A stretch of DNA of 50,668 bases, from positions 1 through 50,668 of the forward strand of contig JANWJR010000032.1 in the NCBI GenBank assembly GCA_025451835.1, in the 5' to 3' direction. The translations under genes and the position numbers were made by a program. The DNA is from Candidatus Acidiferrales bacterium. Lineage in GTDB: Bacteria; Acidobacteriota; Terriglobia; Acidiferrales; UBA7541. Shown one piece after another: positions 33,518 through 47,601 of the stretch (within the stretch, counting starts at the first letter, position 1; every line of letters starts with the position of its first letter). The notes beneath the pieces are model-generated. The model had not been told where the DNA came from. It did not search any database and worked only from the letters and a program-made list of their open reading frames with translations.

Positions 33518-34624
33518 GTGATTTTTGCGCGTTCAACACGATGTCGTCGCGGCCCATGCTCCGGCGTTGCCGGAATTCTTTCTCTTTCAGCTCTTCTCAT
33601 TCTCGCTGCCGTTCCCACATCCGCTGTTTCTCCCGTTCAGGCTTCCCAGCAACGCAAACAGGTAATCATCGATACCGATCCTGGCACCGACGACGCCCTC
33701 GCCATCATGCTCGCGCTCAATTCTCCGGAGCTGAACGTGCAGGCTATCACGGTGGTTCCCGGGAATGTGACCGCAAAACAGGGGCTCGAAAACGCACTGA
33801 AGCTTGTGTCTCTGGCGAACCGCTGCGACATTCCCGTAGCCGGTGGAGCGCAACATCCGCTTTTCCAGAAGCTGGTTACCGCGGAATTCTGGCACGGCAA
33901 AAATGGCCTGGGAAACGTGGAATTGCCCGCGAGCAAATGCAAACCCGACTCGCGATGGGCGCCCGATCTCATTATCCAGATGATCCACGCGGAACCGCAC
34001 CAAATCACGCTTGTGCCGATCGGCCCGCTCACGAATATCGCGCTTGCTGTTGAAAAGGATCCTTCCATCGTTCCGCTGGTTAAAGGCGTGGTTCTGATGG
34101 GCGGCTCGATTTCCGGCGGAAATGTGAACGCCTCCGCCGAGGCGAACATTTATGGCGACCCGGAAGCCGCGCAAATCGTTTTCCAGGCGGGCTGGCCGCT
34201 GACGATGGTGGGGCTCGATGTGGGCAACATGACCATTTTCACGCATGCCGATGTTGACGAGCTCGCCAAGACCCGCGGACCTGAAAATGATTTCTTGCTG
34301 CGCGTGACAAAGTTTATGGTCGATCTCTCCGAGAAATATGGCTATCCCGGTGCGGCGATGTACGATCCGCTCGCGGCAGGCGTCGCTATCGAACCCACAA
34401 TCGTAAAAACCGAGGCGATGCACGTGGACGTGGAAACGCGCGGCGAATTTACGCGCGGCGAAACGGTGGCAAATCGTCACAACACCGTCGAAAACAACGT
34501 TTTGCACGAAGACCATTACACGATCGATAGCATCCTGCACGTGACACCGAACGCCGAGGTTTGCACGGGCGTTGATTCTCGGCGTTTCATCAAGCTTTTT
34601 ATTTCACGGGTCCAAGGAAAGTGA
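33518..34624 (+). CDS. Secreted inosine-uridine-type nucleoside hydrolase 1
   Basis: 368 aa from GTG 33518, with AGGA six bases upstream; no in-frame ATG exists before the mature part. A signal peptide (about 15-42, GVAGILSLSALLILAAVPTS) marks export. The catalytic/calcium loop IIDTDPGTDDA (Asp 52, 54, 58, 59) is canonical, with VPIGPLTNIA, VVLMGG and the substrate-binding EANIYGDPEAA. The last calcium aspartate is in AAMYDPLAAG, where many relatives have His before Asp. It hydrolyses ribonucleosides to base and ribose. Family members are mostly cytosolic; here it should work in the periplasm. First gene of the operon with the TonB receptor 60 bp on. Confidence 0.92.
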   Translation: MIFARSTRCRRGPCSGVAGILSLSALLILAAVPTSAVSPVQASQQRKQVIIDTDPGTDDALAIMLALNSPELNVQAITVVPGNVTAKQGLENALKLVSLANRCDIPVAGGAQHPLFQKLVTAEFWHGKNGLGNVELPASKCKPDSRWAPDLIIQMIHAEPHQITLVPIGPLTNIALAVEKDPSIVPLVKGVVLMGGSISGGNVNASAEANIYGDPEAAQIVFQAGWPLTMVGLDVGNMTIFTHADVDELAKTRGPENDFLLRVTKFMVDLSEKYGYPGAAMYDPLAAGVAIEPTIVKTEAMHVDVETRGEFTRGETVANRHNTVENNVLHEDHYTIDSILHVTPNAEVCTGVDSRRFIKLFISRVQGK

Positions 34625-34684
34625 ATGCCGCAAGTATGGAATCGACAGCGGTACCGAGCGAAGAAAGATAAAGGGGGATTCACA

Positions 34685-37600
34685 ATGAGAAATTGCAAGG
34701 GCTTGTTCCTGGTCCTGGCAATCCTGAGTTTGCTGGCATTGGGCGGTGGCGTCCGCGCGCAGAGCCTGCAGAATGGCGCGTTGCGTGGCACCGTGCTCGA
34801 TAACTCGCACGCCGCGATCGCCACGGCGAAGCTGACATTGACCAATCCTGCCACCGGCATCAGCCGCGAGCAGCAGGTGAGCGCCGACGGGTTCTATTCC
34901 TTCGATAACGTGCCGCCCGGAGAGTACACGCTCACGGCAAACGCCGACGGTTTCGCGATCACCACGGTGAAAAATATCAATATCAGCGTGGGTGCGTCGA
35001 TCAACGTGGACGTCACCATGCCGCTGAAAAGCCAGTCAGCGACCGTTGAAGTCACGGCGAATACTGGCGCGGTCTTTGACACATCGACCGCCGGCATCAC
35101 GCAACTGCTGAACTCTACCAGCGTCGAAAACCTTCCCTTCCCCGGGCGCGATTATCGCGACCTTGCCACTCTTTCTCCCTCGGTCACGGTTGTTCCGGGA
35201 CTTCGCGGCGGCATCCGCATGGGCGGCCAGCAAAGCGATTACAGCGGGCTGGTCGTGGACGGCGGCGATCTCACGAACAACTTCTTCGGCGAGAACTTCG
35301 GTTCGCTGGAAACCAAGAACCTCACGATTCCGCTCGAAGCCATTCAGGAATTCCAGGTCGTCACCAATGGTTTCGCTCCTGAATTCGGCCGAGCGACCGG
35401 CGGGCTGCTCAACGTGGTTACGAAATCCGGCACGAATGAACTTCACGGTGAGGCCCACGAATACTATCGAGGCGGCCGCCTCACCGCTACCGACGCGCTC
35501 CACAACCCGTCGAACATTAATAATCAAAACCAGTTCGGCGGTTCGGCTGGTTTCCCGATTCACAAGGATCGTCAATTCCTCTTCTTATCGACGGACATTC
35601 AACGCGAAAGCGGGCCGCTAGACACGGTTTTCTGTCCTGCAGGCGCCAATCACGCTGCGTGCGAAGCGGCCCTCGCGGCAGCGGGAGGGGGCCCGGTGAT
35701 CGGATCGCCTACCGGGAATTCCGTTCTGCCGGTCAGTTGCACGAATGTGGTTCCCGGCGTTTCGCTGCTTTTGCCGACTTGCTATGGCGTGAACACTCTG
35801 GCGGGATTTGAAGGCTCACATAACCAGTATCAGAATTTCTTCACGATTCTTGGCCACTACGACTACCAGTTCAGCCCGGCGAACCACTTCAGCATCCGAG
35901 GCTTGGGTACGCGTAATCACACGAATGGGTTTACGGGCGGCTTTGGGCAGACCGAAACCTCGATCTCGATCGGAAACGCCGAGAATTTCATCAATCAGGG
36001 CATCAGTGGCGTCTTTGGATTGGATACCGTCCTCGGCAAGAAGGTGAACGAAATTCGCGTAACCATCCAGGGCGAAACGCGCAGGCGCCATCCAATCGGC
36101 GCCGGCCAGCCCGAGCTTTCAATTACCGGCGTCGGCAACGTCGGACAGCGGTTCTATCTGCCGGGTAACAACGACAACGGCAAGCTCGATGTCTCGGACA
36201 ACTTTTCGTATTCTTTCGGCAAGCACGACGTGAAATTCGGCGGCGGCGTGAATTCGTTCGTTGACCGCAAGGATATCTTTGCCGGATGGAGCGCCGGAGA
36301 ATTCGTGTTCTTCGGTCTATGCGATTTCAACCCGAATCCAATCACCTGCGCCGGTGTTCCCAGTCCGCCGACCGCCCCCCAGGTAGGCGGTTTCGAGCAA
36401 GGCTTTGGTCTGAAGGGCAAACCGTTCTTCCAAGCTTCTGAACTCTTCCCGGCATATCAAACAGGAATCGGTCTCTATTGGCAGGACAAATGGCAGATCA
36501 CTCCTCGCATCACGGTCACCTACGGCTTGCGGTGGGACGGGACTTTGAATCCGCAACCGCAAACGCCGGTTGCCGGGAATGAAGTCTTGGTAGGCGAGGG
36601 AGCGGGCAGCCATGCCGTTCCTACGCCTCAGCGCACTCCCCGAGACTTCAAGCAATGGGGGCCGCGCATCGGCGTGGCGTGGAACGTTGGCTCAACCGAA
36701 GCACCCACAGTGGTGCGTGCCGCGTGGGGCCTATACTATGCGCAAACGCCGACCATCTTCTTCCCTGCAGGAGGCAGCGAAAAAAGTGCAAACCTGTTCT
36801 GTTTCACCGGACCGGGCTGCCAACCGACGGCGAGCACTGCCTATAGCATTCCTTATCTCTTCCCTAATTCGCTGCCATTCGGCGTGGATGGGCTGTGCAG
36901 TTCCCCTGAAGGATGCCCCGGTCCAACCTATGTGGATCCAAACTTTCGGAACCCGAAGGTCTCGAACCTCACCGTCAGCTTGGAGCACACATTCTCGGGA
37001 AACTGGAACGTTTCAGTAACCGGCCTATCCTCCCATTCGTGGAATCTGCGAACGGGCGGCTTCAGCACAACGGTCTGGGCTCGCAATTTCAATATCCTTG
37101 GAACCGATCAGTTTGGCCGCTCGATCATCGCAGGAGCGCCCTTCGCTACAGTTCCCCTCGATCCCACTCTCTCGACCGGCGGTACCAATGAGCTCGGAAG
37201 CTTCGGTCACGCAAACTATAACTCCCTCGTCGCCAGCGTGAATAAGCCCTTCGCGCGCCGCTTCCAGCTATTTGCAAACTACACATTTTCAAAGAACGAC
37301 TCAAACGGCTCCAGTGAACGCGACACCGATTCGTTCTTTGGGCCGGAGGACCCGATCAACCTCAACCTGGATTACGGCCGTTCCCAATTGGACCTAACTC
37401 ACCAGTTCAATTCGGGCATCGTCACGAACCTGCCGTGGGGCTTTACCTGGAGCAACAATTTCCTCTACCACAGCGGCATCGCCTATCCCGTGTATATCAC
37501 GTCCGATCTGAACGGCGATGGAATCAGCAACCAGGGGGTCGGTTCGAATGACCGTCCAACAATTGCCGGCGCGAATGGCAAGCTGGCTCTGTTGACGGAT

Positions 37601-37945
37601 TATCCTAGCCGCCAGCCCAACTACTTCGCATGGGACATGCGAATCGCGAAGGACATCAGCTTTAAGGAGCGCTTTCAGGTTCGCCTGAGCGCGGATTTCT
37701 TCAATGTGACGAACCGCGGGAATCTTCAATCCAATCCGGACAACAGCGCGTTCGTTCCATTCGGAGCAGGCTGCGCTCTCTTCCCGGGCAGCGCTACAAC
37801 AAACCTCGCCACTTGTGCGCCTTTGACTCACGTGCCACAACCTGGCGATCCGACTGGGCTCGGCAACACCTTCCGAACTCTGGACGAACTCCCGACTGGC
37901 GCTACGCCGTTTGCGGCGCAGTTCGGGATTCGATTCCAGTTCTAA
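34685..37945 (+). CDS. Oar-like TonB-dependent outer-membrane receptor
   Basis: 1086 aa from ATG 34685 with GGGGGA six bases upstream; the frame runs up to 34625. Signal peptide (GLFLVLAILSLLALGGGVRA), carboxypeptidase-regulatory-like domain (about 25-110, LRGTVLDNSHAAIATAKLTL), plug (about 115-250; LPFPGRDYRDLATLSPSV, EFQVVTNGFAPEFGRATGG) and a large barrel ending in aromatic FGIRFQF. This subgroup is very abundant in Acidobacteriota and imports or binds large substrates. Here it lies between a secreted nucleoside hydrolase and an exported Qng1-like protein, and its stop overlaps the start of the latter (TAATG). The substrate may thus be a nucleoside-containing compound; this is inferred. 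Confidence 0.93.
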   Translation: MRNCKGLFLVLAILSLLALGGGVRAQSLQNGALRGTVLDNSHAAIATAKLTLTNPATGISREQQVSADGFYSFDNVPPGEYTLTANADGFAITTVKNINISVGASINVDVTMPLKSQSATVEVTANTGAVFDTSTAGITQLLNSTSVENLPFPGRDYRDLATLSPSVTVVPGLRGGIRMGGQQSDYSGLVVDGGDLTNNFFGENFGSLETKNLTIPLEAIQEFQVVTNGFAPEFGRATGGLLNVVTKSGTNELHGEAHEYYRGGRLTATDALHNPSNINNQNQFGGSAGFPIHKDRQFLFLSTDIQRESGPLDTVFCPAGANHAACEAALAAAGGGPVIGSPTGNSVLPVSCTNVVPGVSLLLPTCYGVNTLAGFEGSHNQYQNFFTILGHYDYQFSPANHFSIRGLGTRNHTNGFTGGFGQTETSISIGNAENFINQGISGVFGLDTVLGKKVNEIRVTIQGETRRRHPIGAGQPELSITGVGNVGQRFYLPGNNDNGKLDVSDNFSYSFGKHDVKFGGGVNSFVDRKDIFAGWSAGEFVFFGLCDFNPNPITCAGVPSPPTAPQVGGFEQGFGLKGKPFFQASELFPAYQTGIGLYWQDKWQITPRITVTYGLRWDGTLNPQPQTPVAGNEVLVGEGAGSHAVPTPQRTPRDFKQWGPRIGVAWNVGSTEAPTVVRAAWGLYYAQTPTIFFPAGGSEKSANLFCFTGPGCQPTASTAYSIPYLFPNSLPFGVDGLCSSPEGCPGPTYVDPNFRNPKVSNLTVSLEHTFSGNWNVSVTGLSSHSWNLRTGGFSTTVWARNFNILGTDQFGRSIIAGAPFATVPLDPTLSTGGTNELGSFGHANYNSLVASVNKPFARRFQLFANYTFSKNDSNGSSERDTDSFFGPEDPINLNLDYGRSQLDLTHQFNSGIVTNLPWGFTWSNNFLYHSGIAYPVYITSDLNGDGISNQGVGSNDRPTIAGANGKLALLTDYPSRQPNYFAWDMRIAKDISFKERFQVRLSADFFNVTNRGNLQSNPDNSAFVPFGAGCALFPGSATTNLATCAPLTHVPQPGDPTGLGNTFRTLDELPTGATPFAAQFGIRFQF

Positions 37946-39138
37946 TGCAACCGCCAGACGGAGGGCGAAGGCGCTTTCTGAAAGGCGCGACAGGTTCGAT
38001 GCTGGCGGGCGCTGTATCACCCCTGTTCATCGGAGCATGCTCCGATGCGCTGGGAGATTCCGGGCTGAACCGCGGCGCTACAGCCGCCGGCCCGGCTGCT
38101 GCATCCACAGTTCATTCCGCCTCGAAGGGTGACACGACTTTGCGCTGGCCTAAACCCATTGGCAGTCCTGTCCTCGAAAGTCTTCGTCCGGTGATCGAGC
38201 ATTCCCGCGACGTCCACACGCACGTGGATAAGATCGCGGACGTCGCAAGCTGGATGGCTTACGAAGACCTTCCGGTTCCCGAGTACGCGCTCCCCTTCGG
38301 CATTGGCGCGAATGATTCGAATGAAGCCGTTGATTTCATCATGGTCGCCGATTCGATCGACACTGCCTTCACGGATTTTGCAACGCACGTCAAATTCCAA
38401 ACGGATTTTGCCGGGCAGCATTGGTCGGACTCGGAGGCGGAATTCGCTTGCCTCAAGCGCGCCATGGATAGCGGCACGCCGATCCTCGACGGGAAATTCC
38501 TCGCCAAGGTCACGCGCGCGCAGTTGAACTCGATTTTCGCGGGCAACATCGAAATGCCCATGCTCGATGAAAAGCTCGAAGTGCTGCACCAGGTGGGCGC
38601 GGTGCTCGCGCAAAAATACAACGGGCGCTTCTCGAATTTCGTGCGCTCCTGCTCGCCGAAGCTTTACGACAACGGCAACGGATTGATCGACCGCCTGGTC
38701 ACGGAATTTCCGCGGTTCAACGATGTGAGCCAGTTCGAGGGCCACGAGATCAAATTCTACAAGCTCGCGCAGCTCGGCGTTTGGATGCTCTACGCCAATC
38801 TTCACAAGTCCGGAAAATTCCGGCTCGACGATCCGGAAAAGATGACGGCTTTCGCCGATTACATCGTACCGGTCGCCCTCCGGCTGCTGCGCATCACCAG
38901 CTATTCTCCGGCGCTCGAGCACGCCATCGACACCTATCAGTTGATTCCGAGGGATTCGACGCAGGAAATCGAGATACGCGCCCATTGTCTCTACGCCACC
39001 GCGCTGCTCCGCGAGGAGATCAACAAGATTCGCCCGTCCGACATGCAGGTGATCATCCCGCAGATTGACGCACGGCTCTGGGTTCCCTATCACAAGACCT
39101 TCTGGCCGCATCATCTGACGCGCACCATCATGTACTGA
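37945..39138 (+). CDS. Exported, divergent Qng1-like (DUF2419/queuosine salvage family) protein
   Basis: 397 aa from ATG 37945, overlapping the receptor stop by one base. N-terminus: RRRFLKGATGSMLAGAVSPL then FIGAC, a twin-arginine signal with a possible lipobox (Cys 32). The rest aligns, by my recall of the family, to queuosine 5'-phosphate N-glycosylase: KRAMDSGTPILD (171-182), LVTEFPRFNDVSQFEGHEIK (251-270), FYKLAQ (271-276, family FYKRAQ), FADYIVPV (303-310, family FADYR-PQ), TSYSPAL, EIEIRAHCLY (341-350), IDARLW and the C-terminal HHLTRTIMY. The family NFxFW base-binding motif is replaced near 139-146 (DTAFTDF). It likely cleaves an N-glycosidic bond, but substrate is open. Confidence 0.8.
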   Translation: MQPPDGGRRRFLKGATGSMLAGAVSPLFIGACSDALGDSGLNRGATAAGPAAASTVHSASKGDTTLRWPKPIGSPVLESLRPVIEHSRDVHTHVDKIADVASWMAYEDLPVPEYALPFGIGANDSNEAVDFIMVADSIDTAFTDFATHVKFQTDFAGQHWSDSEAEFACLKRAMDSGTPILDGKFLAKVTRAQLNSIFAGNIEMPMLDEKLEVLHQVGAVLAQKYNGRFSNFVRSCSPKLYDNGNGLIDRLVTEFPRFNDVSQFEGHEIKFYKLAQLGVWMLYANLHKSGKFRLDDPEKMTAFADYIVPVALRLLRITSYSPALEHAIDTYQLIPRDSTQEIEIRAHCLYATALLREEINKIRPSDMQVIIPQIDARLWVPYHKTFWPHHLTRTIMY

Positions 39139-39190
39139 ACCCGGTGTACGGCTGCCGCCCAGCAGCTTGCTGAAAAAACTCATTTTGATC

Positions 39191-39293
39191 GTCATTCTGA
39201 GCGAAGCGAAGAATCTCTCTTGGTGACAACGCCAAGGAAAAGAGAGATTCTTCGGGCCACCAACGGCCCTCAGAATGACGCGCGGCTTTTTTT
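39191..39293. repeat. REP-like hairpin element, copy 2, with T-tract (terminator-like)
   Basis: Left arm GTCATTCTGAG (39191-39201) pairs with CTCAGAATGAC (39269-39279); an inner stem GAAGAATCTCTCT (39208-39220) pairs with AGAGAGATTCTTC. Then GCGCGGC and seven Ts (39287-39293). An A-run also precedes it. It can end transcription from the Qng1-like gene, and perhaps from the other strand. Same family as 25541-25627. I recall this TCATTCTGAGCGAAGCGAAG motif as a common dispersed repeat in environmental genomes. Confidence 0.75.
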
Positions 39294-39393
39294 ACAAGCG
39301 GCCAGGCTGGGACGCTACAGTCGGGATTGATAATTACGAGGAGTGGCCGAATCCCGGATTCCGCGGTGCCGGATCAAACAGGAGTTCGAAACC

Positions 39394-40479
39394 ATGAAGA
39401 GACATTATCTGTGGGCCCCAATTTTCGTTCTAATTCTCGCAACGCTGTCGGCGCCTCTCGGCGCGCAGGAAAACCGCAGGGTCGTGATCGACCAGGATTG
39501 CGCCGGGCCGGGCGGAACGGACATGCAGGCAATTCTGGCGATCGTGCAATCGCCGGAAACGCGGGTGCTTGGAATTACCGTGGTCACCGGCGATGCCTGG
39601 CGCGACGAAGAAGTGCAGCATACGCTTCGGCTGATGGAAATCATCGGCCGCACCGATATTCCCGTGGTTCCCGGCGCCGCCTTCCCTCTTGTGAATAGCA
39701 AGGAATACATCGCGCGATGGGAAACGCTCCACGGAAAAGTGGTCTACCAGGGCGCATGGAATTTCGGCAAGCCCGTGCACGGTCCGTACGAGATTCCTCC
39801 CATGCCGGAAGGCAAGCCCGCCATAAAAGCTGCAAACGAAGACGCCGCTCATTTTCTAGTGCGCATGGTCCGCAAATATCCGCATCAGGTGACCATTTAT
39901 GAGGGCGGGCCGCTCACCAACCTTGCGCTCGCGCTGGCGCTCGATCCGGAATTCGCGTCGCTCGCGAAGGAACTGATCGTCATGGGCGGAAGCATCAATC
40001 CGCAGACCGACGACCCGGAATTCAGCATGACGCCCGGCCGGGAATTCAATTTCTGGATGGACCCGGAAGCCTCGCGTCGCGTGCTGCATGCGCCCTGGGC
40101 GCGGATCGTGGTAACCACGGTGGACATTTCGGTGAAGACGCGAATGGACGCGGACCTGATTGCGCGAATCGGCGCGGGAAAATACCCGGCGGCGCGGTAC
40201 GTCGCGAAATATGCGCGGCACAACTATTTGTGGGACGAACTCGCGGCTGTCGCGTGGCTGGATCCGGGCATCATCACGAAATCGCGAAAGCTGTACATGG
40301 ACGTATCCGTGGACCACGGCGACTCGTACGGTGATACGCTCGTCTGGACCGAGGCCACCCGGCCGCACATGGGTGAACGCGTCGTGGAGGTGCAGGACGA
40401 TCTCAATAAAACGAAGTTTTACGATGAATTCGTTGGCCTGCTGACGGCGCCAACTCCAACCGCGCGGCCCGCCCACTAG
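39394..40479 (+). CDS. Secreted nucleoside-hydrolase-family protein 2 (variant active-site loop)
   Basis: 361 aa from ATG 39394 with AGGAG nine bases upstream. Signal peptide (LWAPIFVLILATLSAPLGA). The nucleoside hydrolase fold is clear: TIYEGGPLTNLALALALDP, LIVMGGSINP, REFNFWMDPEASRRVL, WDELAAVAWLDP. The metal/ribose loop is altered: VIDQDCAGPGGTDMQA (Asp 33, 35, 43) instead of DTDPGTDDA, with a longer loop and one acidic residue fewer, and Trp before the last aspartate. It is a close paralog of hydrolase 3 (44409-45554) and distant from hydrolase 1. Cleavage of a non-standard nucleoside is possible. It is preceded by the hairpin repeat, so probably has its own promoter. Confidence 0.88.
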   Translation: MKRHYLWAPIFVLILATLSAPLGAQENRRVVIDQDCAGPGGTDMQAILAIVQSPETRVLGITVVTGDAWRDEEVQHTLRLMEIIGRTDIPVVPGAAFPLVNSKEYIARWETLHGKVVYQGAWNFGKPVHGPYEIPPMPEGKPAIKAANEDAAHFLVRMVRKYPHQVTIYEGGPLTNLALALALDPEFASLAKELIVMGGSINPQTDDPEFSMTPGREFNFWMDPEASRRVLHAPWARIVVTTVDISVKTRMDADLIARIGAGKYPAARYVAKYARHNYLWDELAAVAWLDPGIITKSRKLYMDVSVDHGDSYGDTLVWTEATRPHMGERVVEVQDDLNKTKFYDEFVGLLTAPTPTARPAH

Positions 40480-43092: not shown

Positions 43093-44028
43093 TCAGTTCA
43101 CCAAATAAAACGTCACTTCGATGGGCATAGTGACGGGAACAGGAATGCCGTTTGGGCCCATTGCTGGCTTGAAGCGCCAACGCCGCACTGCTTCCATAGC
43201 TTTTTCATCAAAAATTGCGCCGCCGCTTTTCACAATCTCAATATTCGCCGCATGGCCGTCTGCCCGAATAACTCCCTTCATCAGCACAGTCACTTTATCC
43301 TTTGACCCGCGCCCTTCTCTTGGAAATTCGGGCGGTGGACAGTAAACACAGCTTGGGTATCCCACTCCGTCCACACCAGGCTTCGCTGCAGGAAGTTCGC
43401 TGCCGGCATCATTACGAGAAGTTCCGGCGCCATCTTTAGATGTAACTTCTGGAGGTTCAGGTTCGGCAAAACTGTGCATGTCTCTTATGAAAGTGATCGT
43501 GCTGTCCCACCGAAACTTTCCATCAATAAAAAAGAAGTAGCCAATATGATCCGGTTTCTGGTTCTTGTTGGTCCCTGACGGATTCCAGTCGGCGAGAAAC
43601 ACATCGAGCGGGGCGGCGAGGGTACCGAACATCTTCGCTGAGTCCACTTTTTGGACCGACACTTGACCAGGTAGATGTGCCAGCTGGATCAGATATTCCT
43701 GGAAATGCGATTCGTTTTCTTCGAGCATTTTCCCGTAGGGGTCCGCCCAACTCTCGCCTTTCTCTTTTCCAAAAGTTGCCGTGAACCAAACCTCCGAATT
43801 TGGTATCTCGGTCTCTTTAATCAAAGCCTTAAGTTGCACAGTGTCATCGGTCTTTGCAGCTTCCAACATACCCCGGAGGAGCAGGCGCAGGCCGTCAGCA
43901 TCGTCTGAGTAGGCCTGCAATGGGAGTGACTCCTTCGATTCTCGCGAAAGGCCACTTGGAGGCAGAAGCAGTGAAACCGAGATCACAGAAATCGTGAATA
44001 GAACGAGAATGTATCTGTTCGATTGCAT
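43093..44028 (-). CDS. TonB C-terminal domain protein with an unusual N-terminal domain
   Basis: 311 aa. An N-terminal hydrophobic helix (ILVLFTISVISVSLLLPPSG) acts as signal or anchor. Residues about 40-185 form an unrecognised domain (LRLLLRGMLEAAKTDDTVQL, YFFFIDGKFRWDSTITFIRD) that looks like a SnoaL/NTF2-type small domain. After a polar linker comes SCVYCPPPEFP and a full TonB C-terminal domain (MKGVIRADGHAANIEIVKSG, AMEAVRRWRFKPA). TonB domains contact the TonB box of outer-membrane receptors; the receptor encoded 6 kb away is an obvious candidate. No ExbB/ExbD is present, so it may borrow a general motor. Confidence 0.87.
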   Translation of the reverse strand: MQSNRYILVLFTISVISVSLLLPPSGLSRESKESLPLQAYSDDADGLRLLLRGMLEAAKTDDTVQLKALIKETEIPNSEVWFTATFGKEKGESWADPYGKMLEENESHFQEYLIQLAHLPGQVSVQKVDSAKMFGTLAAPLDVFLADWNPSGTNKNQKPDHIGYFFFIDGKFRWDSTITFIRDMHSFAEPEPPEVTSKDGAGTSRNDAGSELPAAKPGVDGVGYPSCVYCPPPEFPREGRGSKDKVTVLMKGVIRADGHAANIEIVKSGGAIFDEKAMEAVRRWRFKPAMGPNGIPVPVTMPIEVTFYLVN

Positions 44029-44283: not shown

Positions 44284-44312
44284 TTGACTTGCACCGCGTC
44301 GCGAATTATAAG
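44284..44312 (+). promoter_or_regulatory. Strong sigma-70-type promoter of the hydrolase 3/kinase/transporter operon
   Basis: TTGACT, exactly 17 nt, TATAAG: five of six matches in both boxes. It is the best standard promoter in the window. Transcription should start near 44319, about 90 nt before the ATG at 44409. Confidence 0.6.
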
Positions 44313-44408: not shown

Positions 44409-45554
44409 ATGAACGCCGTTCCAGGAGTCTGTCGCGCCATCAGCCCCAAAGCCCTTGCGTTCGCCGCGTGCATTTTGTTTCTGGCGATACCGTCCAGGGC
44501 ACAGTCGAAACGAAAAGTCATTATCGATCAGGACGCTCGCGGTCCGGCGACAACCGATCAGCAATCGATGCTCGTATTTCTGCAGTCGCCGGACGTCGAG
44601 CCTCTGGGCATCACCGTGGTCAGCGGAGACCAATGGCGCGATGAAGAAGTGGCGCATACCCTTCGTATGCTCGAAATCATTGGCCGAACAGACGTCCCGG
44701 TGCTCCCGGGCGCCGTCTTCCCCCTGATCAATCGCATGGAGCTGATCGATCGCTGGGAGAAGCTTTACGGCCTGGTGAGATATGAAGGCGCGTGGAACGG
44801 CCACAGACCGGGAATGAATCTGGGCGAAGGCGTGCGCGGAACGTACCATGCCCCTTACGTAGTGCCGCCGCTCGTCGAAGGAAATCCGACGACCAAGCCT
44901 TCGGAAGAAGACGCGGCACATTTCATCATCCGCATGGTCCACAAATATCCCCACGAGGTGACCGTCTATGCGGCTGGTCCGCTGACGAACATCGCGCAGG
45001 CGGTCAGCATCGATCCGCAAGTCCCCGACCTGGCTCAGGAACTCGTCATCATGGGCGGCTCGATCGCTCCGGTCCGCGATTCCCAAGAAACAACCACGCC
45101 GCGCCGCGAATTCAATTTCTGGTGGGACCCGGAAGCCGTGCACATCGTGCTGACCTCACCGTGGCATAAGATTACGATCACCACCGTGGATATCTCCATC
45201 AAGACGCGCATGACCAAAGCCATGATCGCGGAGATTGCCAAATCGCCCAGCCCCGCCTCTCGGTACATTGCGAAATACGCCGACGAAGAATATATGTGGG
45301 ACGAGCTTGCCGCCGCGGGCTGGCTTGACCCCAGCATCATCACCCGGGAAACCCAGCTCTACATGGACATCGACATTTCACACGGCGCGAATTATGGCAA
45401 CGTGCTGGTGTGGAATCCCGGTGAGCAACCGGGACTTGGCGAGCAACTCGTTCACTTGCCCGAGGAGCTAAACACTCAAAAGTTCTATAAGATGTTCATC
45501 GGCCTGATGAGCCGCCCTACGGCAGGGGCGCGCTCGCCGGTCCAAGCCAACTGA
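44409..45554 (+). CDS. Secreted nucleoside-hydrolase-family protein 3 (variant active-site loop)
   Basis: 381 aa from ATG 44409 with GGGAG five bases upstream. Signal peptide (ALAFAACILFLAIPSRAQ). Family landmarks: VYAAGPLTNIAQAV, LVIMGGSIAP, REFNFWWDPEAVHIVL, MWDELAAAGWLDP. Like hydrolase 2 it has the altered loop IIDQDARGPATTDQQS (Asp 40, 42, 50) and Trp before the last aspartate; long stretches such as WRDEEV-HTLR-LEIIGRTD are shared, so the two are clear paralogs. It starts an operon with the PfkB kinase (8 bp later) and transporter, which suggests that ribose freed here is taken in and phosphorylated. Confidence 0.9.
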   Translation: MNAVPGVCRAISPKALAFAACILFLAIPSRAQSKRKVIIDQDARGPATTDQQSMLVFLQSPDVEPLGITVVSGDQWRDEEVAHTLRMLEIIGRTDVPVLPGAVFPLINRMELIDRWEKLYGLVRYEGAWNGHRPGMNLGEGVRGTYHAPYVVPPLVEGNPTTKPSEEDAAHFIIRMVHKYPHEVTVYAAGPLTNIAQAVSIDPQVPDLAQELVIMGGSIAPVRDSQETTTPRREFNFWWDPEAVHIVLTSPWHKITITTVDISIKTRMTKAMIAEIAKSPSPASRYIAKYADEEYMWDELAAAGWLDPSIITRETQLYMDIDISHGANYGNVLVWNPGEQPGLGEQLVHLPEELNTQKFYKMFIGLMSRPTAGARSPVQAN

Positions 45555-45562
45555 GGGAATCG

Positions 45563-46537
45563 ATGCCAGTCAACCCAAACGTGGACGTCGTTGGAATTGG
45601 AAGCTGCACGGTGGATTATTTTGCAATCGTTCCGCGATTGCTCGGCCCTGAAGAGAAAATTAATGCTGAGCGAATGGAAGTTCATGCGGGCGGCGTGACG
45701 GCCAATAACCTGACGCAAGTGGCACGGCTCGGCGCGAGCACTGGCTGGCTGGGATTGATTGGCGACGACGAAAACGGCCGCATCATTCAGAAAGCCTTCG
45801 CGGACGATGGAATGGACCTTTCGGGAGTCGAAGTGGTGAAGGGCGAGCGCTCGTCGCTCACCTGGATTCCCGTGGACGCGGCCGGCGAGCGTTGCATCTA
45901 CATGTTCCCCAACGTCACCGGAAAGATTTCCATCTTTCAAGTGCGAAACCGGTTTGCAGCGCACATCCAAAAAGCGAAACATTTCCATACAGAGGCGTCT
46001 CAGCTTGCCATCGCCCCTGTGAAGGAAGCCATGCACGTGGCGAAAGATGCGGGAGTGCGGATCATTTTCGACCTCGATGTCTCGCCGAATTTCTTCGCCG
46101 CCGCCAATCTGGGCACGCAAGAGGACCTATGCGACGCCTTGACCTTGGTCGATGTTCTGAAACCCTGCAAGGCTGCCGCGCGTGAAATGACGGGTGAATC
46201 GGACTACGACAAAATTGCGGAACAGCTCCTCAAGCTCGGTCCAAAACTCGTTGCCGTTACGATGGGCGCGGAAGGCTGCCTGATCGCCACGCGCGAAAAA
46301 CGCGTTCATGTTCCCGCGTTCAAAGTCGATGTGGTGGACACAACGGGTGCGGGAGATGCTTTCATGGGAGGCTTGTCCTTTGGCCTCCTGCAGGGATGGG
46401 ATCTCGAGCGCGTGGGATTGTTTGCCAACGCTTGCGCGGGGCTTTGCTGCACGAAGGTCGGCGCGCGAGCAATGTCAAAATACGACGAGGTGGCGGCCTT
46501 CATGGCAAAGAATCCAACGAAAGCCTCCGCTTCTTGA
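45563..46537 (+). CDS. PfkB-family (ribokinase-like) carbohydrate kinase
   Basis: 324 aa; GAGGGA four bases before the ATG, only 8 bp after hydrolase 3. No signal peptide, so cytoplasmic. PfkB signatures: VHAGGVTANNLTQVARLG near the N-terminus and DTTGAGDAFMGGLSFGL (anion hole and catalytic Asp in GAGD) near residue 262. Substrates of this family include ribose, adenosine, inosine and 2-keto-3-deoxygluconate. Given the hydrolases before it, ribose or a nucleoside is the likely substrate; that choice is from context only. Confidence 0.9.
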   Translation: MPVNPNVDVVGIGSCTVDYFAIVPRLLGPEEKINAERMEVHAGGVTANNLTQVARLGASTGWLGLIGDDENGRIIQKAFADDGMDLSGVEVVKGERSSLTWIPVDAAGERCIYMFPNVTGKISIFQVRNRFAAHIQKAKHFHTEASQLAIAPVKEAMHVAKDAGVRIIFDLDVSPNFFAAANLGTQEDLCDALTLVDVLKPCKAAAREMTGESDYDKIAEQLLKLGPKLVAVTMGAEGCLIATREKRVHVPAFKVDVVDTTGAGDAFMGGLSFGLLQGWDLERVGLFANACAGLCCTKVGARAMSKYDEVAAFMAKNPTKASAS

Positions 46538-46620: not shown

Positions 46621-47601
46621 ATGTTCACTCCGCAAACCTTGGGCATCGCTCTCGTGATGATGGTGACGAGCGCTATCTGTTGGGGATCCTGGGCCAACAC
46701 CTTCAAAGGCGTGAAGAATTACCGCTTCGAGCTTTTCTATTGGGATTATGCCATCGGCATTTTCGTGGCCTCGCTGGTCTTCGCCCTGACCATGGGCTCC
46801 TCCGGCCACGACGCTTCCAGTTTCCTCGCCAACGTCCGCTCGGCGGACGCCTCGAATATCGGCTGGGCGTTGCTCGCCGGAGTAATTTTCAATCTCGCAA
46901 ACCTTCTCCTCGTTGCGGCAATCGACATGGCCGGCCTGGCCACGGCATTCCCCGTTTCGATCGGTATCGCTCTCGTTGTCGGCGTGATTCTCAGCTATAT
47001 CCAGCAGCCCAAAGGAAATCTCGCGATGCTGTCGGGCGGCGTCGTTTGCGCGCTGATCGCCGTAATTCTCGATGGCAAGGCTTATGGCCAGCTCGGTACC
47101 GGGAAAGTGCCGTCGCGAAAAAGCATCATCACTTGCGTCGTCTCCGGAGTGCTAATGGGACTCTGGGCGCCATTCTCCGCGCGCGCACTCACGCGAGGAC
47201 ACACTCTCGGGCCATATAGCATCGCGGTTTTCCTCACGCTCGGCGCCCTGCTCTCCTGCTTCGTCTGGAACATTTATTTCATGAGGCGGCCGCTCGTCGG
47301 CGAGCCCGTCAACTTCAGCGGATACTTCCGCGGCTCCTCCGCCGGCCACCTGCTCGGCTTGTTCGGCGGCGCCATCTGGGCCGCGGGAACCGTATTTAAT
47401 CTTGTCGCGGCAAACTTCACCGGCGTTGCGATTTCCTACGCGATCGGCCAATCCGCGCCGATGGTAGCCGCGCTCTGGGGCATTTTCGCGTGGAAAGAGT
47501 TTGCCGGAGCGAACGCCAAAGCCAAATCGTATCTCGCCCTCATGTTCGTCTTTTACCTGGTGGCGATCTTGCTCGTCGCCCAAGCCAACACCGCCTCATA
47601 A
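46621..47601 (+). CDS. Ten-TM transporter of the GRP/ureide-permease type
   Basis: 326 aa; AAAGGGTG shortly before the ATG. About ten TM helices in two similar halves, as in DMT-superfamily carriers. Conserved stretches: ICWGSWANTFKGVKNYRFEL, FYWDYAIGIFVASLVFAL, FNLANLLLVAAIDMAGLATA and SGVLMGLWAPFSARAL. Relatives are annotated as glucose/ribose (GRP) transporters and are distantly like plant ureide permeases, which carry nucleobases and allantoin. Last gene of the hydrolase-kinase operon (83 bp after the kinase), so it likely brings ribose or base into the cytoplasm. Confidence 0.85.
   Translation: MFTPQTLGIALVMMVTSAICWGSWANTFKGVKNYRFELFYWDYAIGIFVASLVFALTMGSSGHDASSFLANVRSADASNIGWALLAGVIFNLANLLLVAAIDMAGLATAFPVSIGIALVVGVILSYIQQPKGNLAMLSGGVVCALIAVILDGKAYGQLGTGKVPSRKSIITCVVSGVLMGLWAPFSARALTRGHTLGPYSIAVFLTLGALLSCFVWNIYFMRRPLVGEPVNFSGYFRGSSAGHLLGLFGGAIWAAGTVFNLVAANFTGVAISYAIGQSAPMVAALWGIFAWKEFAGANAKAKSYLALMFVFYLVAILLVAQANTAS

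Follow-up and report, generated by a model that had tools for sequence, protein, structure and literature searches.

The locus and its conserved neighbourhood

The window analyzed here is a 50,668-nucleotide stretch of DNA from Candidatus Acidiferrales bacterium, a member of the Acidobacteriota. It contains a group of genes with predicted functions in the import and breakdown of nucleosides, arranged as follows.

33518–34624 (+): nucleoside hydrolase IUNH1, RihA/RihC-like (PF01156, 8e-95), with a GTG start and a hydrophobic N-terminal signal
34625–37945 (+): outer-membrane TonB-receptor-like barrel (OMP_b-brl_4 PF25183, 6e-77; CarboxypepD_reg PF13620, 4e-18)
37945–39138 (+): Qng1-like protein P0001, putatively exported; ORF of 397 amino acids with a Q_salvage domain
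39394–40479 (+): second nucleoside hydrolase IUNH2, divergent DQDCAGP type (PF01156, 3e-56), with a signal peptide; the ORF runs from a GTG at 39343 and the likely start is the ATG at 39394
44409–45554 (+): third nucleoside hydrolase IUNH3, DQDARGP type (PF01156, 2e-55), with a signal peptide; the ORF runs from a TTG at 44289 and the likely start is the ATG at 44409
45563–46537 (+): PfkB kinase, ribokinase-like, cytoplasmic (PF00294, 7e-59; TIGR02152, 5e-47, below that model's cut-off)
46621–47601 (+): ureide permease-family transporter UPS, inner membrane (PF07168, 2.5e-16, 59.9 bits against a cut-off of 27; also a weak match to the sugar-transporter family PF06800)

The TGA of IUNH1 abuts the ATG of the barrel gene, and the barrel stop overlaps the start of the Qng1-like gene as TAATG. 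The reading frame at 37945–39138 and this overlap had both been described in a first-pass annotation of the same DNA, and both are present. That annotation paired the Qng1-like protein with a TonB receptor, and proposed a survey for such receptors beside its homologs. A barrel does adjoin the gene, with weak matches to TonB-receptor profiles, and a barrel is found in 12 of the 22 related loci whose Qng1-like protein has a twin-arginine (RR) leader, but the TAATG coupling is not general among related loci and the barrel belongs to a larger conserved module. The remainder of this module, consisting of nucleoside hydrolases, kinase and UPS, was overlooked at that stage and is, as a pattern of gene content, well supported. 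Of the 22 RR-leader loci, several of which are interrupted by contig ends, 17 have a nucleoside hydrolase no more than 9 kb from the Qng1-like gene, compared with none of the seven scorable loci for cytosolic or distant Qng1 proteins. PfkB is found in 12 of the same 22 loci and UPS in 10. A hydrophobic leader precedes 43 of the 44 scorable nucleoside hydrolases and the remaining one has an RR leader, while UPS occurs in 13 of 14 genomes with the exported form of the Qng1-like protein against one of five with leaderless forms. One locus (L075) contains a DeoC aldolase, a pyrimidine nucleoside phosphorylase and a CNT transporter.

Also within the module, on the opposite strand, a gene at 43093–44028 (−) encodes a TonB C-terminal-domain protein. 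Between the Qng1-like gene and IUNH2, at 39168–39290, is an inverted repeat, CATTCTGAGCGAAGCGAAGAATCTCTC ... GAGAGATTCTTCGGG ... CAGAATGACG, which looks like a dispersed intergenic repeat. Control of the module by a preQ1 riboswitch was considered and rejected, as the window gave no match at E-values up to 1, and in seven related loci none reached the gathering score.

Family, leader and active site of P0001

In a profile search PF10343 (Q_salvage/DUF2419) matches residues 124–397 of P0001, reaching the end of the profile, with an E-value of 1.1e-55 and a score of 189.6 bits against a cut-off of 25. It is the sole Pfam match, and PF01156, the nucleoside hydrolase family, is not matched by P0001. 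The sequences of the StQng1 (Qng1 of S. thermophilus) structures match at ~1e-44, and StQng1 and human QNG1 are the nearest solved structures. An AlphaFold2 model built from 38 relatives, with a mean pLDDT of 94.5 and a pTM of 0.92, aligns over 315 residues with StQng1 (PDB 7uk3) at a Z score of 39.3 and 2.0 Å; DNA glycosylases, which come next among the folds, reach no more than Z 13. The first-pass assignment to the Qng1/DUF2419 family is therefore borne out far above the profile cut-off, and the structural overlay it proposed places the predicted protein in the Qng1 fold. A mobile origin was rejected as no relatives were found in plasmid, phage or viral collections.

P0001 falls in a divergent clade of Acidobacteriota, of which 30 members were examined. 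A fully supported branch of 1.49 changes per column sets the clade apart from StQng1 and human QNG1, in a tree whose deep joins are uncertain because of long branches; the long-branched L076 sits inside the clade, its placement unresolved. A partial PF10343 match (1.8e-7) was also observed inside a 622 amino acid open frame at L084 (G406:C2:355379-355756), possibly a fusion or a very distant relative. In two deeper-branching loci, L058 and L066, the Qng1-like gene is accompanied by a PfkB gene and an adjoining BtpA-family gene, the latter identified by Pfam in L058 and by a common sequence cluster in L066.

The N-terminal residues of P0001 are MQPPDGGRRRFLKGATGSMLAGAVSPLFIGACS. Within these, RRRFLK-GATGSMLAGAVSPLFIGA consists of a Tat-type motif (residues 8–13) followed by a modestly hydrophobic stretch, as expected of a Tat substrate. 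Leaders in the clade were assigned by eye, and signal peptides were scored by motif and hydropathy rather than by a dedicated predictor; on this basis an RR-x-F/L-type leader is present at the same place in 22 of the 30 members, with variants that include RRRFLQ, RRKFLG, RRQFVQ, RREFVK and RRSFLS. Five members clearly start without a leader (L057, L058, L059, L060 and L078) and three are ambiguous. As the leader is conserved despite differing linkers, a wrong start was rejected as its origin. The Tat-type signal seen in the first pass is in this way shared by the homologs surveyed at a frequency that argues against an intracellular location of P0001, and we infer export. The FIGAC string reported in the same region is lipobox-like in P0001 but is not conserved, the lipobox cysteine being clear otherwise only in L064, and a lipoprotein anchor was therefore rejected as a family trait. 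Overall, family, fold, leader and conservation support, at the level of sequence and predicted structure, the original description of P0001 as an exported, divergent relative of Qng1. A search of the available literature for an exported Qng1 found none, and to our knowledge the characterized Qng1 members that salvage queuosine are intracellular.

The catalytic residues K199 and D231 of StQng1 are kept in P0001 as K273 and D305, and D298 and W302, named as active-site residues (PMC11592518), are kept as D375 and W379. According to their PDB titles, 7u5a is StQng1 K199C with queuosine and 7ulc is D231N with queuosine 5'-monophosphate (Q-5'-MP). In the alignment no clade member, even at 53% identity, differs at these four positions or at H316. 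Three basic residues are replaced in P0001, with L274 for R200, I307 for K233 and L391 for R317, and these replacements are general: the clade has Leu at the R200 position in 28 of 30 members, Ile at K233 in all 30 and Leu at R317 in 29. The seven cytosolic Acidobacteriota Qng1 proteins all keep R200 and R317, as does StQng1, but have Leu at 233, so loss of the two arginines is diagnostic of the clade while loss at position 233 is not. The first-pass annotation had noted lost arginines in FYKR and FADYR. The first is R200, and it has indeed gone; the basic residue of FADYK/R is not diagnostic, being K in StQng1, R in the human protein and L in other bacterial Qng1 proteins; and the loss of R317 was overlooked. 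The reported loss of the NFCFW motif holds for P0001, which has IDTAFT, but the N is kept in about half of the clade, and the cytosolic Acidobacteriota proteins have NFGSGYF at this position, so the W is not universal. R200 adjoins the catalytic K199 and R317 adjoins H316, and both arginines may bind the 5'-phosphate. Their replacement by Leu makes it plausible that the exported protein has changed to a substrate that lacks this phosphate.

Queuosine-precursor genes in genomes of the clade

The survey of QueC covered a sample of 399 genomes of the class, 18 of which carry the clade gene. QueC is absent in nine of these 18 compared with 42 of the 381 others (p 9e-5; 0.001 when the ambiguous genomes G037 and G040 are left out; 0.005 when only genomes of 90% completeness or more are counted), p-values that overstate the significance as the genomes are related. 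Within the genus of the window, whose own genome is about 80% complete, QueC is absent in three of three genomes with the gene against two of 17 without, and QueF is missing in three of three against none of the six tested. QueF as well as QueC is missing in G000, G002, G011 and G590. TGT was found in 17 of 20 clade genomes and QueA in 18 of 20.

Comparison of G011 (L097) with G009 of the same genus (L102) revealed a clean deletion of queE-queC behind a retained queD, with syntenic neighbors. In G057 (L101) and G064 (L103) queC is reduced to internally deleted remnants, and there is no QueE match in these two stretches. Assembly gaps were therefore rejected as the cause of queC loss in these three genomes, while in G037, where queD is at a contig edge, and G040, a fragmented genome, the absence of queC may be such a gap. 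Half of the clade genomes retain queC. Three of the queC-negative genomes, G057, G064 and G035, encode a leaderless form and lack UPS. Their salvage is therefore not accounted for by the module, and loss of queC is a correlate of the clade rather than of the exported module alone. The known queuosine-precursor transporter QPTR (PF02592) was considered and rejected, being absent from G000 and from all but two clade genomes.

A candidate periplasmic salvage route

Taken as a whole, these features make it most likely that P0001 works in the periplasm as an active nucleosidase of the Qng1 fold. We propose, with a probability of roughly 0.45, that it cleaves a nucleoside lacking phosphate to yield a 7-deazaguanine base, which UPS would import. 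The enzyme would be sent to the periplasm via the Tat pathway, where it would meet a 7-deazaguanine-type nucleoside (preQ1, preQ0 or related, without 5'-phosphate) that enters through the neighboring barrel. Splitting of the N-glycosidic bond of this modified guanosine would release the base, which would be taken up by UPS and used for queuosine-tRNA synthesis via TGT and QueA, while the neighboring nucleoside hydrolases would treat other nucleosides and the kinase would handle ribose.

A queuosine-precursor nucleoside is favored as substrate over queuosine or a common nucleoside because of transport data for UPS and the gene losses described above. A UPS from Acidobacteriota whose gene neighbors qng1 is reported to import preQ0 and preQ1, to take queuine at very high concentration only and not to import queuosine, which the authors found unexpected (PMC11130926). 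The P0001 clade is the only one in our survey in which UPS and Qng1 genes are neighbors, so the qng1 of that report probably belongs to the P0001 kind of locus. Periplasmic cleavage followed by import of the base would remove the puzzle of a transporter beside qng1 that carries bases but not queuosine.

The serious rival to this reading, strong because of the three nucleoside hydrolases and the kinase, is general nucleoside or ribose scavenging, which we consider possible if somewhat doubtful. The enzyme would have shifted to a common nucleoside, one that is a poor substrate of the hydrolases, the kinase would use the ribose, and UPS would import ribose or common bases. The signal peptides of the hydrolases, the weak PF06800 match of UPS, the catabolic genes of L075, the altered NFCFW and lost R200/R317, and the retention of queC by half of the clade genomes can all be read in this way; the hydrolases, the ribokinase-like kinase and, in some loci, the DeoC-type aldolase fit ordinary nucleoside catabolism, and preQ1/preQ0 nucleosides are not obvious as an abundant soil nutrient. 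Scavenging leaves unexplained, however, both the excess loss of queC/queE/queF and the transport of preQ0/preQ1 by a UPS next to qng1 (PMC11130926), and a Qng1 fold acting on common nucleosides beside three nucleoside hydrolases looks redundant. We consider it unlikely that P0001 is an ordinary Qng1 moved outside the cell, releasing queuine from queuosine or Q-5'-MP for use via a QueL-type lyase to preQ1 or a queuine-accepting TGT. Q nucleosides are an abundant product of tRNA decay and K199, D231, D298 and W302 are kept, the last two named as active-site residues (PMC11592518), but this would sit poorly with Leu at R200 and R317, the altered NFCFW, the retention of QueA in 18 of 20 genomes and the reported need of the tested UPS for very high queuine concentrations (PMC11130926). 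An exported protein that is catalytically dead or serves in binding, suggested by the differences in the pocket from characterized Qng1, is very improbable given that the catalytic positions (Lys, Asp, His and Trp) do not vary in the clade.

If release of a precursor base in the periplasm is correct, an exported Qng1 with its own outer- and inner-membrane partners would place queuosine salvage in that compartment. The exported relative may be the way in which soil Acidobacteria obtain queuosine precursors from their surroundings, a proposal made because many carriers have lost genes for precursor synthesis. Tentatively, the clade could have turned to preQ1/preQ0-nucleosidase activity, the exported form providing the first, periplasmic step of salvage before import by UPS, and this could have permitted soil Acidobacteriota to lose queE, queC and queF repeatedly. 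These losses make the salvage idea directly testable.

Among known systems, the Acidobacteriota UPS-qng1 cluster (A0A2V9U0M9) resembles the P0001 module in having UPS beside qng1 and is very probably a locus of the same type; the UPS of the window, assigned by its PF07168 match, may belong to the preQ0/preQ1 transporter subgroup of A0A2V9U0M9 (PMC11130926). The text of PMC11130926 does not contain "periplasm," "signal peptide" or "TonB," and in it export, a barrel and signal-bearing hydrolases go unmentioned, as does, in the sections consulted, loss of queC/queE. The nucleoside hydrolases of the RihA/B/C kind, three of which are encoded in the window, share nucleoside hydrolysis with the proposed activity but have a fold unrelated to that of the Qng1-like protein. 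This broad group includes QueK. The rus-type ribose/nucleoside loci of Bacteroides combine outer-membrane import, exported nucleoside hydrolases and ribokinases, as the P0001 module appears to, but are of the SusCD type and aimed at ribose; we know of no Qng1 relative in them. With the Qng1 proteins of S. thermophilus and human P0001 shares the full-length PF10343 match, the fold (Z 39) and K199, D231, D298, W302 and H316, and it differs from them in its Tat-type leader, the replacement of R200, K233, R317 and NFCFW, the nucleosidase neighborhood and the separate long-branch clade. Judged from these sequence features, the putatively exported clade is a variant within the known Qng1 family.
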